From positions 1-40,689 of IMG/VR virus record IMGVR_UViG_3300049791_000027: 40,689 bases of DNA; one strand, 5' to 3'. Positions 1 through 40,689 of the stretch are shown here, piece after piece. The notes beneath the pieces are model-generated. The model did no database searches, was not told the origin of the DNA, and saw only the letters and a program-made list of their open reading frames with translations. Both the position numbers and the translations under genes were made by a program. The DNA comes from a virus. Position 1 is the first letter of the stretch. Every line of letters begins with the position of its first letter.

Positions 1-127
1 GCTACCACCCCACCATCGCGCAATTGGATAAAGACGGCAGCAGGGCCACCATGCCAGAGTATGTCCGCCAATGCCGCGACACTATGATGGCGGTGTTCGA
101 CGAATATAACCCCGATGACCGATGCGC
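1..127. repeat. 127-bp terminal direct repeat, left copy
   Basis: Bases 1-127 are identical to 40563-40689. The repeat lies inside the primase-helicase gene, and the frame reads through it without interruption when the two ends are merged. That fits a circular assembly closed with an overlap better than a real short terminal repeat. A length of 127 is also a common maximum k-mer of short-read assemblers, which supports the artefact reading. Confidence 0.97.
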
Positions 128-22532: not shown

Positions 22533-22669
22533 TCGTAAAGCGCGGAAATCAGTATGCTGTAACTACTGAGGATGGCAGTAAAACTCTGGGCACCCACGCT
22601 ACTCACGCGGATGCCCAGAAACAACTAGCTGCGATCGAGATATCTAAACATCTCAGGAAGAAGGGTTAG
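22529..22669 (+). CDS. Small conserved-type protein, 46 aa
   Basis: The ATG overlaps the preceding stop (ATGA). The peptide has a pattern typical of small phage proteins: VKRGNQYAV, then DGSKTLGTH, then a Lys-rich end AAIEISKHLRKKG. It is the last gene of the late operon, and its stop overlaps the stop of the convergent gene at 22666 by 4 bp. The function is unknown. Confidence 0.65.
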   Translation: MIVKRGNQYAVTTEDGSKTLGTHATHADAQKQLAAIEISKHLRKKG

Positions 22670-23154
22670 TCACCCGGCGTGTTGTACGGGGCTGGCTTCT
22701 GTGGTTGGGCCTTGCTCGCCACGTACTTCTGCCAAGCCTCTTCCGATTCTGTCATAAGTGTCGTCGGCTGGGGAGCTGGGACCTCGGACAAGTCCCACTC
22801 CTTCTCAGCGGCTAGTGGCCTGTTCCATACTGGCTGTGGGGCATAGATCTCATTGGCGCACTTCGGCGAAGTAAGGTGTGCCTCCACCAGCAGCAGATAC
22901 CGACGCAGGTCAGCTATGTCGTCCAGGATGCCGTCTATCTTCGCAGTATTGATATCCTTATCAATAGCCACGAAGATGTCGTACCCGTTGGCTTTACATT
23001 GATTCTCCAATCGGTCCCACTTGCGCGCCAGCATCATAAAGGCGCCTATCCCGCCCCTGTTCCGCCAACTGCTCCCGTAGGTCTTACCCTTCTCCTCCAG
23101 TACCTTCACGTCTTGGAGGGCGAGGCTTGTGATGTGCTTGTAGTCTTCGATCAT
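22666..23154 (-). CDS. NMAD1/DUF1599-like nucleotide-modification-associated protein
   Basis: The product is 162 residues from the ATG at 23154, which overlaps the HD-protein stop (ATGA) and has GGAG 7 nt upstream; an ATG at 23172 lacks a good site. Residues about 20-90 carry KGKTYGSSWRNRGGIGAFMM, ARKWDRLE and DIADLRRYLLLVEAHL, matching the helical DUF1599 fold now called nucleotide modification associated domain 1. This family is linked by gene neighbourhood to phages with modified bases. The C-terminal 60 residues are Pro-rich. It closes the modification operon. Confidence 0.65.
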   Translation of the reverse strand: MIEDYKHITSLALQDVKVLEEKGKTYGSSWRNRGGIGAFMMLARKWDRLENQCKANGYDIFVAIDKDINTAKIDGILDDIADLRRYLLLVEAHLTSPKCANEIYAPQPVWNRPLAAEKEWDLSEVPAPQPTTLMTESEEAWQKYVASKAQPQKPAPYNTPGD

Positions 23155-23681
23155 TTGTGACTCCAGTGCCATTCAGTTAGTACCAGTTGAACGAGCTCGG
23201 CCGCTGGTCCGCCGCCGAGTGCCGGGAGCTGAGAGCTGAGGTATGCAGCATAATTCTCGCCGCACCCCTCAATCGTGTAGTTCCCCATTCGCTTCTCCTC
23301 GATGCACTTCAGAAGCCCATCAAGGTTATCCGCAGTCTTCAGTAGCAGGGCCTCCCATGAGGTTAGTGGCTCCCACACCCTGTCGTAGATCATTTGCATG
23401 GCCCCGAATTCTATGTCTTCGAATGCCCCCTTAGCGTCTGGCCCCATAGCCCGCTTAGACGGGCTGGGCATGTCGCCAGATACATACTCCCCAGCATCGT
23501 GCGCCAGCGCATCCATCAGCAGCTTGCCTGTGACTTGGCCCCCGGTCATTATCATCAGTAGGTTGAGCAGGCCGAAGGTGTGTTCCGCCACGTTCTCCGG
23601 CTTCAGCAGGAATTGCGTGTGGAATCGTGTTACACGCCCAGCGCGTCGCGCTAAGTGGGCTCTCTCTAATATTGTAGTCAT
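23151..23681 (-). CDS. HD-domain 5'-deoxynucleotidase (YfbR-like)
   Basis: The product is 176 residues. The ATG at 23681 has AAGGA upstream and lies 1 bp after the thymidylate-synthase-family stop; the longer open frame is antisense-free but has no ribosome site. HD motifs are in place: VAEHTF (H34), AHDAGEYVSGD (H61/D62) and TADNLDGL. The family removes phosphate from deoxynucleoside monophosphates. Here it may clear unmodified or wrong dNMPs so that the modified nucleotide dominates the pool. Confidence 0.8.
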   Translation of the reverse strand: MTTILERAHLARRAGRVTRFHTQFLLKPENVAEHTFGLLNLLMIMTGGQVTGKLLMDALAHDAGEYVSGDMPSPSKRAMGPDAKGAFEDIEFGAMQMIYDRVWEPLTSWEALLLKTADNLDGLLKCIEEKRMGNYTIEGCGENYAAYLSSQLPALGGGPAAELVQLVLTEWHWSHK

Positions 23682-23682
23682 C

Positions 23683-24717
23683 TTATTTTCCTTTCTTAAA
23701 TAGGGCGCGAGTATACCATTGTACGATAGCAAGTCGCCAATCATACGCATCGATACATTCTGCGATTTCAATTGCTTCTTGATAATTGCCCAGTTTCCAT
23801 TCCCGCCAACTGGCCCACACTGGCTCGACAGTGTCCTCAAGAAACGGTTCCTCAAATCCCGACTGTTTGCCATTACACAGTTCCTCACATTCTTTAAGGA
23901 ATCGGCGCCAGTTCACAGCTATCGGCTTGCGTGGCGGGGGCTTCAGTACGCCTGCATACCGCTCCCACGGCACGGAATTGTCCTGTACCTCCTGTGCGAT
24001 ACCCTTCACCATGCCCCAGTGGCGCTCGTAGACGTGTAGGTTATTGGTTACGTGGTGCCAAGCCCCGCACTGTACGCCCAACGCGTTCGCCATGAACTCT
24101 TGCAGCATCGTCAGATGTACGGCATTGGCCCCACACAACCCCCATACGAGGTCGTTGCTGCGGTTGATAATGGTGAAGTCCAGGCGGTCGTACTTGGTCA
24201 TTCCGTCTGGGCTGTCCTTGGTACTGAACGACGGCATAATCATCACGTTACATGGGAAGTCCTTACCGTCCTTGCCATTGCCGTCCTCTCGGGCGTCCCA
24301 CATACTGATGATGGCCCTCCTGTCGTTCGGGTCTTCATCAAGCATTTCTATACACTTGGTGATTTGGTCCACGTCAAAATGGTTACGCCAGCGGTGTCCG
24401 TAAGCAGCATGAAAAACTGCTCCGTCATCGCTATAGTTTTCAATGTTGGAGTTGAATTGCTGAAGGAATGCAACGTCGTTACGACCCGCAAACATCCAGA
24501 TAGATTCCATGAGGTGGAAAACATGGTTACAGTTCCTTTCTACGTCGAACAGTACCCGCTCCCACGGCTCGCGTACTGTGATGGATTGCACGCCTATAAA
24601 CTTGATGGCTGGCCCGTTACGGGTCATCACCTTCTCAGCAAACTTTGGGTCCATGGCGCGATAACACAAGTTCCGCCACATACCGCGCAGGTCTGTGAAC
24701 TCTCTATAGGTCATCAT
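23683..24717 (-). CDS. Thymidylate synthase-family enzyme (probable dUMP/dCMP C5-modifying)
   Basis: The product is 344 residues. The fold is clear: ESIWMFAG (E71), the nucleophile in DFPCNVM (C156), INRSNDL (R186-D189) and NNLHVY near the end. The loop that is GLPFN in normal ThyA reads GLCGAN here, so the asparagine that selects dUMP is shifted or changed. This is a sign of a phage variant, and a dUMP or dCMP hydroxymethylase is possible. Its place between the base-modifying protein and the HD nucleotidase supports a role in making a modified pyrimidine. The ATG overlaps the preceding stop. Ordinary thymidylate synthase is the alternative. Confidence 0.8.
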   Translation of the reverse strand: MMTYREFTDLRGMWRNLCYRAMDPKFAEKVMTRNGPAIKFIGVQSITVREPWERVLFDVERNCNHVFHLMESIWMFAGRNDVAFLQQFNSNIENYSDDGAVFHAAYGHRWRNHFDVDQITKCIEMLDEDPNDRRAIISMWDAREDGNGKDGKDFPCNVMIMPSFSTKDSPDGMTKYDRLDFTIINRSNDLVWGLCGANAVHLTMLQEFMANALGVQCGAWHHVTNNLHVYERHWGMVKGIAQEVQDNSVPWERYAGVLKPPPRKPIAVNWRRFLKECEELCNGKQSGFEEPFLEDTVEPVWASWREWKLGNYQEAIEIAECIDAYDWRLAIVQWYTRALFKKGK

Positions 24718-25565
24718 TTCTTTTCCCTCTTGTAGTAGCGCTTGCGGCTCTTAGTGCGGGGGTTGCTGTACTTCATGTATTTCTGGAACTCACAGAGGCA
24801 GTTCTGCAAGTCCTGAGCGTGGATCTCCATGGCCCATACGTCTTCCGGCATAACGTCGTACAGGATAGACATGCGGGCCATGAAGTTGCCCTTAGTCGTG
24901 GTTCCCTCCCCGAATATAAAATCAAGCCCCTTTATGGACCCCGGCCCCGGCGTACACCAGTCCTGATGCTCGGCAGCGGCTACCAGATAGCGGTCGTTGC
25001 GTAGGTCCGCAATAACTTGCCCGGCCAGAAAGCCCGTGCCGCCAAGCCCAGCAATACTGCTCAGCGCTGCGTGCGCATTTGCAAGGGAGTCGGTCGGAAT
25101 GATTACCTTTTGCGCTGCGAGCACCATGCTCAGCACGTAGTCTATCTTGTCAACGCGTTGACCCGCTGTGCTCACCACGTAGGCGGGGTTGAAGATCTTA
25201 TTGCCCTGATCCCTGTAGTCCTTCAGGTTCTCAAAGGCCTCTTCAATACTGGCCCCATCATTCGTCCAGGTCAGGACTCTTTCCAGCGTCGGGGCGTGGT
25301 TGAAGAGCCGAGCCATCAGGTAAACAGTCGGCAAGCAACTGACAGTCACAGTATCCAGATCCTCGGCTGGGAAGTAGGACTCTACAACTGCGCGGATTTC
25401 CTTAGTGCCACGGTCATCCTCGCGGTGGACATTGCAGAAGTGGTACGTCTGCAGGATTGGGTCGTCAGTCCATCGGCACCTCGGCACAAGGCGCTCTTTC
25501 TTATAGCGGATATTTTCCCGCTCCCGAATCCAGTACCAGAATTTCTCGAGGGTCTCTTCGTTCAT
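24714..25565 (-). CDS. DNA base hypermodification protein (aGPT-PPlase/HMUDK_hel-type)
   Basis: The product is 283 residues; TAGGAG precedes the ATG. Signature motifs are FWYWIRERENIRYKKE (about 9-24), TDDPILQTYHFCNVHREDD (33-51), a helix-hairpin-helix-like IAGLGGTGFLAGQVIADL (171-188), GPGSIKGLDFIFG (207-219), CLCEFQKY (256-263) and the end SRKRYYK. I recognise these from the glycosylase-like families of hypermodified-thymidine phages (alpha-glutamyl/putrescinyl-thymine pyrophosphorylase and 5-hmdU DNA kinase helical domain groups). Related enzymes act on activated hydroxymethyluracil in DNA. The exact member is not decided. ATGA overlaps join it to both neighbours. Confidence 0.82.
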   Translation of the reverse strand: MNEETLEKFWYWIRERENIRYKKERLVPRCRWTDDPILQTYHFCNVHREDDRGTKEIRAVVESYFPAEDLDTVTVSCLPTVYLMARLFNHAPTLERVLTWTNDGASIEEAFENLKDYRDQGNKIFNPAYVVSTAGQRVDKIDYVLSMVLAAQKVIIPTDSLANAHAALSSIAGLGGTGFLAGQVIADLRNDRYLVAAAEHQDWCTPGPGSIKGLDFIFGEGTTTKGNFMARMSILYDVMPEDVWAMEIHAQDLQNCLCEFQKYMKYSNPRTKSRKRYYKREKK

Positions 25566-26320
25566 GCTTTGCTACTCCTATAGGCTTTCTGCCAGCGGAC
25601 AGAGACGTCCCAGCGCTTGCCTATATCCCAGCCGTCTTTCTGGGTCAGCGTTACGAAGTCCGGGAACATGCGCTGTAGTTCACGAGCACAATGCTCAAGC
25701 AATTCTACCGTGCGGATATTGCTACATCCTCCGGGAGCATTGCTCCTGTAATGGTCCTGGACAACCCCATAATAGTTCAGGGAGCTATACCCGCTTGTCA
25801 AGAGCTTTAAGTTCATCTCAAAGTCTTGCATCAGGGGCAGCGTTATCCTAATATTCTGCGCTCGGACCACATTCAAATTGTACGCCAGTGCCCGCATGAT
25901 GCGACCATTCGGGGCCACCAACGGCTGATTGTTGGCAAATTGCCTGTGACCAATGCCTGAATGGGCTACTCTGTCAAGCAGGGAATCAACCACTGCAAAG
26001 GCATTACGGAAGGACTGGCCGTTCTCGTCCTTCTTGTAGGACGTAGTGCCCGCCACTCGATAGGCCCAGTTGGCGAGGTCGTCGTCCAGCATTAGTAGCT
26101 TATCATCGGAGCTATTATCTATGGCCCACTGGCGGGAGGGACTGATGCCGGGGCCAGCGCCGTGCGTACAGACGCTATACCCGGCGTCGCGTAGCTGTGT
26201 AGATAGCTCTTTATCGTTAACCAGTAGCTGGACGCCATACATGGCCCGGTATTCTTCGGGGATGCGGTCATATGTAAGTTGTTCATATGGGCCGCGATTG
26301 GTGGGGATGAATATTTTCAT
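25562..26320 (-). CDS. TAGT-type glycosyltransferase (GT-A fold)
   Basis: The product is 252 residues from the ATG at 26320 with AGAGG upstream; a GTG at 26341 would add seven residues but overlaps the operator. The N-terminus KIFIPTNRG and the metal-binding LMLDDDL (D79-D81) mark a GT-A glycosyltransferase. The overall length and IFIPT...R start fit the TET-associated glycosyltransferase family, which transfers sugars to modified bases in DNA. No TET dioxygenase is seen here. It is the first gene of the modification operon and overlaps the next by ATGA. Confidence 0.75.
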   Translation of the reverse strand: MKIFIPTNRGPYEQLTYDRIPEEYRAMYGVQLLVNDKELSTQLRDAGYSVCTHGAGPGISPSRQWAIDNSSDDKLLMLDDDLANWAYRVAGTTSYKKDENGQSFRNAFAVVDSLLDRVAHSGIGHRQFANNQPLVAPNGRIMRALAYNLNVVRAQNIRITLPLMQDFEMNLKLLTSGYSSLNYYGVVQDHYRSNAPGGCSNIRTVELLEHCARELQRMFPDFVTLTQKDGWDIGKRWDVSVRWQKAYRSSKA

Positions 26321-26331
26321 TGGATAAACCT

Positions 26332-26344
26332 CTAGTGGCACTAG
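26332..26344 (-). promoter_or_regulatory. CTAGTGGCACTAG operator, possible promoter of the modification operon
   Basis: A perfect 13-bp palindrome centred on G26338, containing GTGGCAC, lies 12 bp upstream of the glycosyltransferase ATG. On the - strand, TTGTCC (26360-26355) is 17 bp from CACTAG (26337-26332). That -10 is poor and would give a leaderless mRNA, and TCTAGT (26345-26340) lacks a good -35. The operator is firmer than the promoter. Transcription could also come from 26967-26995 through the terminator. Confidence 0.6.
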
Positions 26345-26358
26345 AATATTCCAGGGAC

Positions 26359-26388
26359 AAAAAAGAGCCGGGTCGAGAGCCCGGCTCT
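26359..26388 (-). terminator. Intrinsic terminator on the - strand before the modification operon
   Basis: On the - strand, AGAGCCGGG (26388-26380) and CCCGGCTCT (26372-26364) form a 9-bp stem with a 7-nt loop followed by TTTTT. It ends the transcript of the gene at 26395-26916, 6 bp after its stop, and insulates the modification operon. Confidence 0.9.
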
Positions 26389-26394
26389 TACAAC

Positions 26395-26916
26395 TTAGGC
26401 TTCGGCAGCTTCTGCCACTTCACCGATGTCGATGCTGATGAACCCGTGCGACGTGTCGTAGTGGAACCCGCTGGTGGTCAGGCCAGCAGCGAGCGCTTCG
26501 GCCACGGTTTGCCCGGTCACATACAGTTCGAATCGGGTGTGGGCAGCTGAGCCTTCGCGCTTTGGATTCTTCTCCGCCAGCAGGGTGATCACGGCGGTGG
26601 CCGGGAACTTGCCGGAGCGGCCAGTGCTTTCGCGCTTAACTTTCGGCGCTTTGTAGGCAGTTTCTTTCGGGCCCATCACAGGCTCGCCAGCTTCATCGAA
26701 GGCTTGGGTGCCGTCTTCGTTGGCTTGCGGGTAGAGTTTCGGCGCTTTGGGGGCTTTTGGCTCTTTCGGCGCCTTAGGAACTTTTGGCTCTTTCTGGGCA
26801 ACAGTGCCGCCTTCCAGGGTTTTCTTAACTCGTTCTTTCTTTGCAGGTGGTACTTCGAGCGCTTGGGTCGCAGCAGCGGCTTCAGCCAGAACTTCTTCTA
26901 CGGTCTTGTCAGTCAT
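26395..26916 (-). CDS. Lys/Pro-rich protein, possible DNA-binding
   Basis: The product is 173 residues. Residues 20-65 hold a histone-H1-like repeat (KVPKAPKEPKAPKAPK). The C-terminal 75 residues form an ordered domain, ESTGRSGKFP to GFISIDIGE, with EKNPKREGSAAHTRFELYV. That sequence resembles a widespread unassigned bacterial and phage domain. The basic tail suggests nucleic-acid binding. It has its own candidate promoter and a strong terminator, so it is a one-gene, probably well expressed, unit. Confidence 0.7.
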   Translation of the reverse strand: MTDKTVEEVLAEAAAATQALEVPPAKKERVKKTLEGGTVAQKEPKVPKAPKEPKAPKAPKLYPQANEDGTQAFDEAGEPVMGPKETAYKAPKVKRESTGRSGKFPATAVITLLAEKNPKREGSAAHTRFELYVTGQTVAEALAAGLTTSGFHYDTSHGFISIDIGEVAEAAEA

Positions 26917-31278: not shown

Positions 31279-31899
31279 CTAGAACAGGCCAGCAGTTGCG
31301 GCTTCTGATTTAACCCACTCGGCCAAGAACCGGTGGCCCGATACGTTTGGGTGGAGCTGAGTGCTGGTCGCTACCTCGGTAGCGTCATAGTAGGCAGCGC
31401 CAGCGCTATCGCCCATGATGGTATTGGCGCGGTGCGCGAAGTATGCAGTGCTAGGGAACTCGTTACACACGGACAGCAGGAAGAACCTGTAGGTGTTGAG
31501 GGTATTCCCAAGCGGGTTGGCGGTGCCCTCCCCAGCCTTCCAGATGGGATCGAATACAATCACCTTGCGGCCGAACGACAGGGCGTAGTTCATGATGCGG
31601 CGTAGACTATCGACCGTATCTTCCCATGGGACATTGCGGTTGTAGTCGTTGACCCCCGCCATTACCATGATGTAATCCCAAGCGGCATATGTCCCGCCAA
31701 TGCGGGCGAAGGTATCCAGTAGCTCATCACTATTGAACCCTGTGGAATCAGTAATGCCGAGCGCATTGCCTGGAGCAGCAAGGCTCTTGAATACTACGTC
31801 GCGCTCGTTGCTAACCAGCGTCAGGCACATATCCGCGGACATGCCCTGTGGCACACTCGATAGGATGCTATCGCCTATAACTATCACTGTCTTAGTCAT
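31279..31899 (-). CDS. SGNH/GDSL-family hydrolase
   Basis: The product is 206 residues from the ATG at 31899 (a GTG at 31908 is possible). Blocks are clear: VIGDSIL (nucleophile Ser), the glycine block LAAPGNA, MAGVNDYNRN (Asn) and LHPNVSGH (His). The family comprises esterases and deacetylases acting on acylated sugars or lipids. No signal peptide. In a replication operon this is unexpected. Possible roles are removal of acyl groups from a capsule or O-antigen precursor, or tailoring of a DNA modification. Confidence 0.85.
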   Translation of the reverse strand: MTKTVIVIGDSILSSVPQGMSADMCLTLVSNERDVVFKSLAAPGNALGITDSTGFNSDELLDTFARIGGTYAAWDYIMVMAGVNDYNRNVPWEDTVDSLRRIMNYALSFGRKVIVFDPIWKAGEGTANPLGNTLNTYRFFLLSVCNEFPSTAYFAHRANTIMGDSAGAAYYDATEVATSTQLHPNVSGHRFLAEWVKSEAATAGLF

Positions 31900-31937
31900 A
31901 CTAGTCACCAGAAGGGGGCCGTCCTTGGCCGTAGCAA

Positions 31938-33474: not shown

Positions 33475-33921
33475 TTATGCTTTCCTATCGGTTAAGTCAT
33501 AGACGTCGATGTATTCGACACCCGGCACTGAGAACCCATTCTCTTTGTACTCATCCACCGTGCCAGTGGCGAGCCTGAACTGCAAGAGAGATAGGTCGCT
33601 GGTTTTCTTGATGTGGGCGATAAGCAGTTCCTTATCGCTGACGGTAGCCACGGGCTTAGTGTTAAGCCCTGTAACCCGGCCATCGATCATGACGCCCTCC
33701 AACTTCTGCGCCCTGAATACCTCAATGGCGTAGGACTTGAAGGCTGTTTCGCTGGCCTGAGCCTTGCGGGCTTCGCGCTCCAACTCCAGGCGCTTAGCGC
33801 GCATCGCCCGCCACTGTGTGATGACGGCTTCGTAAAGGTCGCGCCTAGCCTCTACGACAGGTACAGATAAGGTGGATGCCAATAGCTCGCCAATGGCATC
33901 TTCTGGCCATAGATCAGTCAT
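33475..33921 (-). CDS. Hypothetical protein, 148 aa
   Basis: The ATG at 33921 has AGAGG upstream. An upstream frame reaches 34008 but overlaps the next gene without a ribosome site. Residues about 25-60 form a charged helix (AMRAKRLELEREARKAQ), and the C-terminus is ordered (LLQFRLATGTVDEYKENGF). The function is unknown. It is part of the - strand replication operon. Confidence 0.6.
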   Translation of the reverse strand: MTDLWPEDAIGELLASTLSVPVVEARRDLYEAVITQWRAMRAKRLELEREARKAQASETAFKSYAIEVFRAQKLEGVMIDGRVTGLNTKPVATVSDKELLIAHIKKTSDLSLLQFRLATGTVDEYKENGFSVPGVEYIDVYDLTDRKA

Positions 33922-34267
33922 ACTCGTGATACCTCTGTAGGATGTGATTGTATTTTCGTCTGACGGCCTCATGGTCCCAGAACGTATTGCTGTCGTGGAC
34001 GCCCTCAACCTCGAAGGTGCCCTTGACTATCTTCGGGTTATCTGGCAGAATGAAATACATGCGGCAGCCCGTTCCGAACTCTACGCATCTCATGGTAGGC
34101 CAGATTCCTGTGGCCCCCATATCCTGCAGAATAGGGATGCAGTACTCGTAGAACTCCTTGTTGGGGACTACCACGTAAACATGCCTCCCGCCAAAGCACT
34201 GTCGCATCGCCGCTGCCAACATCTTAGTGGTGCGCCCGCTGCGTCTCTTATCCCACTTAGTGTTCAT
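33914..34267 (-). CDS. P-loop-like small protein
   Basis: The product is 117 residues. RRSGRTTKMLAAAM at residues 8-21 resembles a degenerate Walker A motif. Beta-strands (HVYVVVPNKE) follow, but no Walker B is obvious. It could be a small ATPase-like regulator. It overlaps its neighbours by 8 and 11 bp. Confidence 0.6.
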   Translation of the reverse strand: MNTKWDKRRSGRTTKMLAAAMRQCFGGRHVYVVVPNKEFYEYCIPILQDMGATGIWPTMRCVEFGTGCRMYFILPDNPKIVKGTFEVEGVHDSNTFWDHEAVRRKYNHILQRYHEYD

Positions 34268-39187: not shown

Positions 39188-40689
39188 ATGTCCATCTCTA
39201 AGTTCTTGCAAACGGACAAAACATATCTATCAGAAGCCGCCGACTACTTAGACAGTCGTGGCGTCACCATCCAGGACCTGCCAATCCTTACGTACAAGAA
39301 CGCCAACATCGGGTTCTTTACCAAGACTGGCCCGGACCAATCCCAACCCCATATCATTGAGGGCTGGGCGTTTAAGATACGTGGCCCAGAGGATGGGTAC
39401 TACGATGATCGCTGGCTACTCAGGGCTTGCAACTGGGATGGGAATACTGATTACTACCAGCGGCGGAACAAGGTCTACCACAAAGTCGAGAAGCCCCCCA
39501 AATTCGTACAGCTGAGTGAGAAGGGCGCCGACTGCATCTATTATATGGCTAGCATGGAGGCGCTGTGTCATGCCCCCATCGTCATGTTCCATGAGAAGTT
39601 CACCAGCGCATCCTTGGCCCAGAAACTGACCGGCATCCCGGCGCTGGCCCTCTCCGGATGCACCAACTGGTCCACAGACAAGCGACTCAAAGATTCCCTG
39701 ACCGCCATGATCAAGTGCATGGTGCCCAGCGCTAAGATCGTAGTGTGCTTTGATGGGGATATACTCGAAAACCCAAACGTGATGCACGCCGCATCTCAGC
39801 TCAAGGGGTGGATCCATGCTATTCGACCAGATATATCGGTATCTTTCCCAAACGTACCACCACTCACCGACGGGCGTAATGGTTGGGATGACTGGCTTGT
39901 GGACCAAGGAGAATTTGCAAGAAGTCATTTCCTTGCTATCATCGAAGACAATGGGGTTGATGTCACCACTGCCCTTCCGATCGCGCATCTTATTGCTAAG
40001 TACCAAGTCAAGGTCAAAGTCCTTAAAGAATCCATACATATCGAGCAGACCGCAGCCAATTACCGTCGCCTACTCCACCATCCGCTCTGGGAGAATTACA
40101 TCCAGGACACTAGTGGGGCTGTATATGACAGAGAGGACATAGGGGCTGGCGGGCTCTCATTAGAGGAGTTCGCTATGCGCTATGAGACGTGGCTGGCGGA
40201 CACAGTATTCCTTGGCGAAGGTGCTGGCGTGCGGGGCACACAAGTTAAACAGGCATGCAAGATGGAGTTAGCGAGCCGTACAGAGTCCGTGCCGCTGCTA
40301 CTGCTAAGCGCGCAACCCCCAGTTACCCTGCTACAAGCGCAAACCGCAGCTATACGCATGTTCACTGACGGTATACGGGTCACTGGCCCCATGTCAATGG
40401 ACGAAACAGTAACAACGATGATTCGTATGGCCCGGGACATGGTCGCACTATGGTCCTCGGATAAGTCAGTCGATGTCCAGTGGGTGCTGGCCCTAGTCGG
40501 TCCAACCGGATGCGGTAAGTCTAACTTCCCAAAGAGCTTTCTGCGCTGTTTCGAGGCACTCGGCTACCACCCCACCATCGCGCAATTGGATAAAGACGGC
40601 AGCAGGGCCACCATGCCAGAGTATGTCCGCCAATGCCGCGACACTATGATGGCGGTGTTCGACGAATATAACCCCGATGACCGATGCGC
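39188..40689 (+). CDS. Primase-helicase, N-terminal part (continues at 1-803)
   Basis: The start ATG at 39188 follows AGAGGAG with a 6-nt spacer. The joined product is 725 residues. The N-terminal third carries a TOPRIM-like region of the DUF3854 type: FHEKFTSASLA, then ALSGCTNW, then the acidic motif VVCFDGD, as expected for a primase catalytic domain. The C-terminal half carries Walker A GPTGCGKSN (K444), and the rest of the helicase lies at 1-803. A fused primase and SF3/VapE-like helicase would unwind and prime phage DNA together with the family A polymerase encoded at 29314-31095. It is the last and largest gene of the + strand early region. The open frame has no stop before the right end only because the circle was cut inside it. 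Confidence 0.85.
   Translation, partial: MSISKFLQTDKTYLSEAADYLDSRGVTIQDLPILTYKNANIGFFTKTGPDQSQPHIIEGWAFKIRGPEDGYYDDRWLLRACNWDGNTDYYQRRNKVYHKVEKPPKFVQLSEKGADCIYYMASMEALCHAPIVMFHEKFTSASLAQKLTGIPALALSGCTNWSTDKRLKDSLTAMIKCMVPSAKIVVCFDGDILENPNVMHAASQLKGWIHAIRPDISVSFPNVPPLTDGRNGWDDWLVDQGEFARSHFLAIIEDNGVDVTTALPIAHLIAKYQVKVKVLKESIHIEQTAANYRRLLHHPLWENYIQDTSGAVYDREDIGAGGLSLEEFAMRYETWLADTVFLGEGAGVRGTQVKQACKMELASRTESVPLLLLSAQPPVTLLQAQTAAIRMFTDGIRVTGPMSMDETVTTMIRMARDMVALWSSDKSVDVQWVLALVGPTGCGKSNFPKSFLRCFEALGYHPTIAQLDKDGSRATMPEYVRQCRDTMMAVFDEYNPDDRC
40563..40689. repeat. 127-bp terminal direct repeat, right copy
   Basis: Identical to 1-127. Removing one copy gives a 40,562-bp unit genome and restores one intact primase-helicase gene. 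Confidence 0.97.

Follow-up and report, generated by a model that had tools for sequence, protein, structure and literature searches.

Which base does a phage make when its DNA-hypermodification operon carries a glycosyltransferase (GT) at the place where related phages carry a DNA-base kinase? This question was raised by the 40,689-bp virus record IMGVR_UViG_3300049791_000027, which was analyzed over its whole length (the window). A minus-strand operon in this window encodes a glycosyltransferase of the TAGT family, an all-helical protein of the HMUDK_hel family, formerly aGPT-PPlase1 (hereafter HEL), a thymidylate-synthase-family enzyme (TS), an HD nucleotidase (HD) and a small conserved protein (Table 1). 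We consider it likely that this is a thymidine-hypermodification operon in which a GT replaced the 5-hydroxymethyldeoxyuridine (5-hmdU) DNA kinase, that 5-hydroxymethyluracil (5hmU) is capped with a sugar, and that HEL is a shared 5hmU-DNA partner. Judging from sequence, the operon probably swaps part of the thymine for a sugar-coated base.

A preliminary description of the window had proposed five consecutive minus-strand open reading frames (ORFs) joined by ATGA junctions or a 1-bp gap, and all five were found where it had placed them. The TAGT/HEL and HEL/TS junctions are 4-bp overlaps (ATGA), and TS and HD are separated by 1 bp if HD starts at the ATG at 23681. This ATG is preceded by AAGGA, a Shine-Dalgarno-like sequence and good ribosome-binding site; the longer HD ORF reads back into TS, and its start at 23888 is probably not real. 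The last ORF overlaps HD by 22 bp, or meets it at an ATGA junction if its in-frame ATG at 23154 is used. In Pfam searches, TAGT matched PF20691 with 50.3 bits (cut-off, 27.5) over residues 1–197, HEL matched PF18723 with 125.5 bits (cut-off, 25), TS matched PF00303 with 82.2 bits (cut-off, 24.3) and phrog_5131 at E 5e-89, and HD matched PF12917 with 54 bits (cut-off, 25.9). HD also matched the YfbR structure 2paq in PDB (E 4e-6), to which its HDAxE and GDxP(S/T)P motifs align, and its score of 34.9 did not reach the NCBIfam equivalog cut-off of 122. The Pfam and PHROG matches thus upheld the four enzyme-family assignments of the preliminary description, and they placed both HEL and TAGT inside modification families. 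The DDD motif of TAGT lies at residues 79–81; among 14 relatives, D79 and D80 were invariant and D81 was conserved in at least 90%. A sequence search of PDB with TAGT returned nothing significant. A DNA-level search of a phage collection with the operon region gave no match; the identical gene set and order recurred in relatives whose HEL is only 41–77% identical, and therefore the operon is more than a chance arrangement. The family matches and this recurrence support a base-hypermodification operon, as had been proposed.

Table 1. Positions of the operon genes and associated features in the window.
Feature	Position	Strand	Basis or remark
Terminal direct repeat	1..127		Identical to 40563-40689
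Small conserved protein	22666..23172	-	Alignment of 10 homologues, YGSSWRxRGGxGAFMMLARKWDR...DDIxDLRxYLL
HD: YfbR-like HD 5'-deoxynucleotidase, 176 aa from ATG 23681	23151..23681 (ORF to 23888)	-	PF12917
TS: thymidylate-synthase-family enzyme, 344 aa, predicted dUMP hydroxymethylase	23683..24717	-	PF00303, phrog_5131
HEL: HMUDK_hel (formerly aGPT-PPlase1), 283 aa, all-helical	24714..25565	-	PF18723
TAGT-family GT-A glycosyltransferase, 252 aa, exchangeable slot gene	25562..26320	-	PF20691, phrog_842
Exchange slot	25566..26639		blastn similarity to L029 breaks here; L029 has a GT-B gene instead
Conserved Lys/Pro-rich small protein, 173 aa	26395..26916	-	Next gene upstream of the slot in relatives

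We compared the operon with that of the Pseudomonas phages M6 and PaMx11, in which the gene order is kinase (M6 gp54, PF18748), HEL (gp55), TS, HD, small genes and PolA; in M6, an amino acid:DNA transferase (ADDT; gp51, PF18724) and tailoring enzymes lie further upstream of the kinase. M6 DNA carries 5-NedU, and M6, ViI and phiW-14 are thought to share a 5hmdU intermediate that is phosphorylated in DNA by the kinase (PMC6449724). The phage studied here likewise has HEL, a uracil-type TS and an HD nucleotidase beside an A-family DNA polymerase. It differs in that TAGT stands at the kinase position, with HEL-TS-HD kept, and in that genes for the kinase, ADDT and the PLP and radical-SAM enzymes are absent. 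Neither the kinase (PF18748, or a profile of 11 kinase sequences) nor ADDT (PF18724) was detected in the complete genome; the same searches recovered both in M6, PaMx11 and the related record L056, and the kinase in L004. Single-sequence profiles of the M6 PLP (pyridoxal phosphate) enzyme, the M6 radical-SAM enzyme and the PaMx11 FAD enzyme gave no match in the genome. The record ends in an exact direct repeat of 127 bp; this terminal redundancy indicates that the phage genome is complete, at approximately 40,562 bp. The GT-type relatives tested with the PF18748 and PF18724 profiles also yielded neither gene. In a scan of whole records with profiles built for this analysis, kinase and ADDT were each found in 0/25 GT-type records, and in 17/17 and 6/17 kinase-type records, respectively. 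PF18723 is currently named "5-hmdU DNA kinase, helical domain" in Pfam, which implies an accompanying kinase that this genome does not contain. Consequently, the HMUDK_hel/aGPT-PPlase1 family of HEL stood, but the catalytic step suggested by the pathways of SP10, phiW-14, ViI and M6 needs revision: Pfam treats the family as a kinase helical domain, ADDT is PF18724, and both kinase and ADDT are absent. Two side observations concern the kinase. The 5-hmdU DNA kinases M6 gp54 and PaMx11 gp49 (L011, L012) are labelled "terminase small subunit" in public records and also in PHROG 800, an apparent mis-annotation. A small protein encoded at 33914-34267 has a GRTTKM motif similar to an isolated Walker A; it gave no match to the 5-hmdU kinase profiles.

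The relatives share the synteny PolA, nucleases, SNF2, small protein, slot, HEL, TS and HD, and they differ in the slot. It is occupied by TAGT in L002, L006 and L007, by a PF18748 kinase in L004, and by a 413–441-aa GT-B protein in L003, L005, L029, L033 and L036. In blastn, L029 and the phage genome were 78% and 73% identical on the two sides of the slot. L056, with ADDT and kinase, and L041, with one GTB2 gene, shared 81% identity over the 5.1 kb leading to the slot, and their similarity resumed at the start of HEL with 74% identity. Sister phages thus differ by clean cassette swaps at the DNA level. A tree of 25 phages based on PolA, SNF2 and TS contained 11 changes of slot type, and L056 and L041 were fully supported sisters. 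The HEL tree required 21 kinase/GT changes, at least 12 of them forced by well-supported branches, compared with approximately 49 for shuffled labels; therefore, the type of partner persists through inheritance for some time but is often switched.

The GT-B proteins of the slot (GT-B family 1) have almost no sequence match, with only Pfam Glyco_transf_4 at E 0.15. Their AlphaFold2 model (pLDDT 84) matched GT-B glycosyltransferases at E about 1e-10 and the T4 alpha-glucosyltransferase bound to HMU DNA (1y6g) at E 1.1e-9, and the GT-B fold is thus shown by prediction. GTB2 was placed in GT-B by profile similarity to family 1 alone (E 5e-5), and GTB3 was not confirmed as GT-B, so that its glycosyltransferase label is putative. 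In L281-L289, the order is HEL, a small protein of the 22666-23172 family, GT-B, TS, HD and PolA; i.e., the linkage survives rearrangement. Separately, L076:3324-5063 encodes a 579-aa TAGT fused to a radical-SAM/SPASM enzyme (PF20691+PF04055+PF13186) between HEL and TS.

Next to the slot comparison stand the locus counts. Loci were obtained from scans anchored on HEL, TAGT and kinase and were classified by the profiles built for this analysis; alignments of the whole TAGT family and, initially, of HEL proved too diverse to scan collections with. Dereplication at 80% identity left 157 HEL loci: 77 with a kinase, 70 with a GT, 10 with neither and none with both. The GT loci comprised 55 with TAGT, 8 with GT-B family 1, 4 with GTB3 (putative), 2 with GTB2, and 1 with GTB2 and TAGT. 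ADDT was present in 27/77 kinase loci and 0/70 GT loci (Fisher p 1.9e-9, indicative only as the loci are related). HEL was nearby in 63/79 TAGT-anchored loci, where kinase and ADDT were both 0; in 75/79 kinase-anchored loci; and in 29/47 loci anchored on GT-B family 1, where kinase was again 0. The partner gene lay directly upstream of HEL, within 60 bp, in 102/157 loci. Six HEL loci (L081, L084, L086, L096, L097 and L099) had no TS, kinase or GT in the stretch fetched; they represent a different context, perhaps prophage or defence, and aGPT-Pplase is listed among predicted defence domains (PMC13092281).

What might HEL do beside such different partners? Its residues R16, R48, D51, D187, E259 and K262 were identical in the 70 GT-type and 77 kinase-type sequences. 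Since these key residues agree in both classes, HEL probably performs one task common to kinase- and GT-type loci. Such charged, invariant residues would also fit a catalytic protein, and on the old aGPT-PPlase idea HEL is itself the downstream transferase: a host or unrecognised kinase, or a sugar, would supply the leaving group, HEL would swap in an amine or amino acid, and the GT would act before or after. The original family name and annotations (e.g., "aGPT-Pplase1" in phage Pam3, and PMC9599517) agree with this idea. We nevertheless regard it as unlikely. Amino acid:DNA transferase, as curated in PF18724 (M6 gp51), forms a separate family, which accompanies HEL with kinase and never HEL with TAGT or with GT-B family 1; in addition, the complete genome lacks a kinase, and in Pfam nomenclature HEL is a portion of the kinase. 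PF18724, which is absent here, accounts for the amine chemistry. The simplest common task of HEL would be to recognise 5hmU in DNA or to present it to the neighbouring transferase. This is a conjecture, drawn from the exchangeability of the slot enzymes beside the same HEL. The best reading is that transferases of different chemistry share HEL as a partner, and that HEL is not the pyrophosphorylase or transferase to which its old name refers. Hypermodified sites favour TG/TC, for which the kinase was suggested as the cause (PMC6449724); HEL as the reader of sequence context is speculation on our part. Tentatively, HEL may be a general, possibly sequence-selecting 5hmU-DNA platform for kinases and for GT-A or GT-B glycosyltransferases, the phage may thereby convert selected thymines into its own equivalent of base J, and the solitary TAGTs of phages may for the most part belong here.

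The substrate of the pathway was assessed through TS. The catalytic Cys was present in every readable locus. The pyrimidine-selecting residue was Asn in 66/66 GT-type and 62/62 readable kinase-type loci, and it is Asp in T4 gp42, a dCMP hydroxymethylase. Asn at this position has been assigned, with reasons, to dUMP and Asp to dCMP (PMC8670742). Cytosine as the substrate was rejected because of the Asn at this dUMP-determining position. The sugar-bearing modified pyrimidine predicted by the preliminary description is thus supported, with uracil as the pyrimidine that the Asn points to. We assume the following steps. HD would remove competing dTMP or dNMP, and TS would make 5-hydroxymethyl-dUMP, its uracil specificity being supported by the Asn and hydroxymethylation rather than methylation being presumed. 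The phage polymerase would incorporate 5-hydroxymethyl-dU into DNA, where HEL would bind 5hmU, possibly at preferred sequence contexts, and present it to the adjoining transferase. In the last step, TAGT would use a nucleotide-sugar as donor and glycosylate the 5-hydroxymethyl group, and the resulting glycosyl-5hmU would resemble base J. In the sister phages, this HEL would instead act beside the kinase, and an amino acid would then replace the phosphate (the ADDT pathway). The transfer of a sugar to 5hmU within DNA is feasible in chemical terms: T4 beta-glucosyltransferase converts 5hmU into base J (PMC4111573), and the T4 alpha-glucosyltransferase AGT was crystallised with HMU DNA (1y6g). 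The modified base may benefit the phage against restriction.

Several observations weigh against this pathway and the role of HEL in it. Synthase and hydroxymethylase activity of TS were inseparable by sequence here. The AlphaFold2 model of HEL, a check named in the preliminary description, was confident (pLDDT 93.4) but gave no significant match in PDB: Foldseek returned none below E 1, the only hints, none of them significant, led to DNA glycosylases, and a sequence search of PDB also yielded nothing significant. No HEL-transferase fusion occurred in 234 loci. TAGT, TS and HD occurred without HEL in L009, L217 and L250, i.e., HEL is not always needed, and 18 copies of GT-B family 1 lay away from HEL, most in other surroundings, indicating other roles too. 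Finally, exclusivity is not absolute, as GTB3 and kinase occurred together in 10/24 loci (L325, L327, L331-L334, L336 and L340-L342; L334 also with TAGT). A kinase and a putative glycosyltransferase can therefore coexist in some phages.

The idea that kinase and GT never co-occur, which had come from 147 classified loci, was corrected by these GTB3 and kinase loci of the GT-B-anchored scans. HEL, kinase and GTB3 stand together in L327, L331-L334, L336 and L340-L342 and also in L271:1-6436, there with two radical-SAM genes and a methyltransferase; loci of this kind possibly direct a phosphate-and-sugar or more complex thymidine modification. A fusion of HEL to the kinase in ViI was considered and rejected, as the ViI HEL is a separate 407-aa ORF. 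A subfamily of GT-B family 1 that is approximately 37% identical to the L003 protein has neither HEL nor TS nearby (L291, L292, L296-L305, L309, L311 and L312).

The lack of fusions, the L281-L289 loci, in which HEL and the GT-B gene are not immediate neighbours, and the occurrence of TAGT without HEL would fit a second explanation. In this explanation, there is no interaction between HEL and the slot enzymes; HEL has a separate universal job on 5hmU-DNA, such as blocking host base excision, and the slot is a recombination hot spot for cargo. We find this improbable given that HEL lies near 75/79 kinases and 63/79 TAGTs, that the partner is so often directly upstream (the 102/157 loci above), and that Pfam treats HEL as a kinase domain. 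The third explanation supposes a normal thymidylate synthase, canonical DNA, a GT that acts on the cell surface and a leftover HEL. It draws on the inseparability of the TS activities and on the 18 GT-B family-1 genes away from HEL and TS. We judge it very unlikely: TAGT members act on phage DNA (T6; PMC13216743), the GT and a DNA-base kinase replace each other in a single slot, the operon is ATGA-coupled, the HEL residues are 100% conserved in GT-type loci, unlike in a leftover, and the closest TS homologues among phage isolates are M6/PaMx11-type enzymes. We thus retain the reading in which a GT took the place of the kinase beside a shared HEL.

The components of this pathway have been described previously; the kinase/GT swap and the reading of HEL appear to be new. 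Most of these families were reportedly predicted by context by Iyer et al. in 2013. Neither a kinase-GT exchange nor a HEL shared between partners was found stated in the literature compared, which did not extend to the primary pathway papers. The HTVC023P-type pelagiphage cluster is similar in having TS, aG/PT-PPlase1, a 5'-deoxynucleotidase and a putative glucosyl-HMC-glucosyltransferase near PolA; the available excerpt of its report (PMC9599517, 2022) interprets the cluster as thymidine hypermodification of the M6 kind and mentions neither the missing kinase nor a kinase/GT exchange. The T2/T6 TAGT, a beta-glucosyl-HMC-alpha-glucosyltransferase (PMC13216743), is likewise a PF20691 GT-A enzyme, but the T6 enzyme adds a second glucose to glucosylated hydroxymethylcytosine, whereas the present TAGT is predicted to use 5hmU. 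No T4-type AGT or BGT was seen in the phage genome. Solitary TAGTs without an assigned role occur in 288/753 phages (PMC13216743, 2026), and this operon is such a case. The cultured Brevibacterium phage LuckyBarnes (NC_047851) has TS, two TAGTs and HEL adjacent as gp38-41, and its genome also lacks the PF18748 kinase and ADDT; it differs in the two TAGT copies and in a HEL that is only 27% identical. The predicted product belongs to the same class as base J (beta-glucosyl-5hmU) of kinetoplastids, a glycosylated 5-hydroxymethyluracil. Kinetoplastids produce base J through JBP, which oxidises T within DNA, and a separate glucosyltransferase, whereas 5hmU here would come from a nucleotide-level TS-type enzyme.

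If the reading is true, it would provide a role for TAGTs in phages lacking other DNA glucosyltransferases (the 288/753 genomes of PMC13216743). It would also revise the "aGPT-PPlase1 / 5-hmdU DNA kinase helical domain" label, misleading for about half of the loci, which have no kinase, and would predict a phage class whose DNA contains glycosylated 5-hydroxymethyluracil, for which kinetoplastid base J is the best-known example. This would be relevant to restriction-enzyme resistance and to host defences that recognise DNA modifications. The function of HEL would be directly testable by partner swapping, for which L056 and L041 are a natural exchange.

In the surrounding genome, terminase, portal, lysis and tail genes lie on the plus strand and replication genes on the minus strand, and the operon forms the 3' end of the replication block. 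It is preceded by genes for PolA, a PD-(D/E)XK nuclease, a phrog_93-type endonuclease, an SNF2 helicase and the small Lys/Pro-rich protein, which matched no family in the library search of the genome proteins. A GDSL-lipase-like gene (31279-31908, minus strand) lies between PolA and a conserved 262-aa gene; none was present at the corresponding place in the relatives compared. The last gene of the operon had been described as NMAD1-like, and this assignment was not confirmed: PF07659 (NMAD1/DUF1599) gave no match at E<=10 in the genome or in six related records, nor did the corresponding small protein of phage Pam3 match it. The protein also had no Pfam or NCBIfam match. A 34-residue stretch matched LuckyBarnes TS in its C-terminal region (E 5e-4), which suggests that proteins of this type can be fused to TS.

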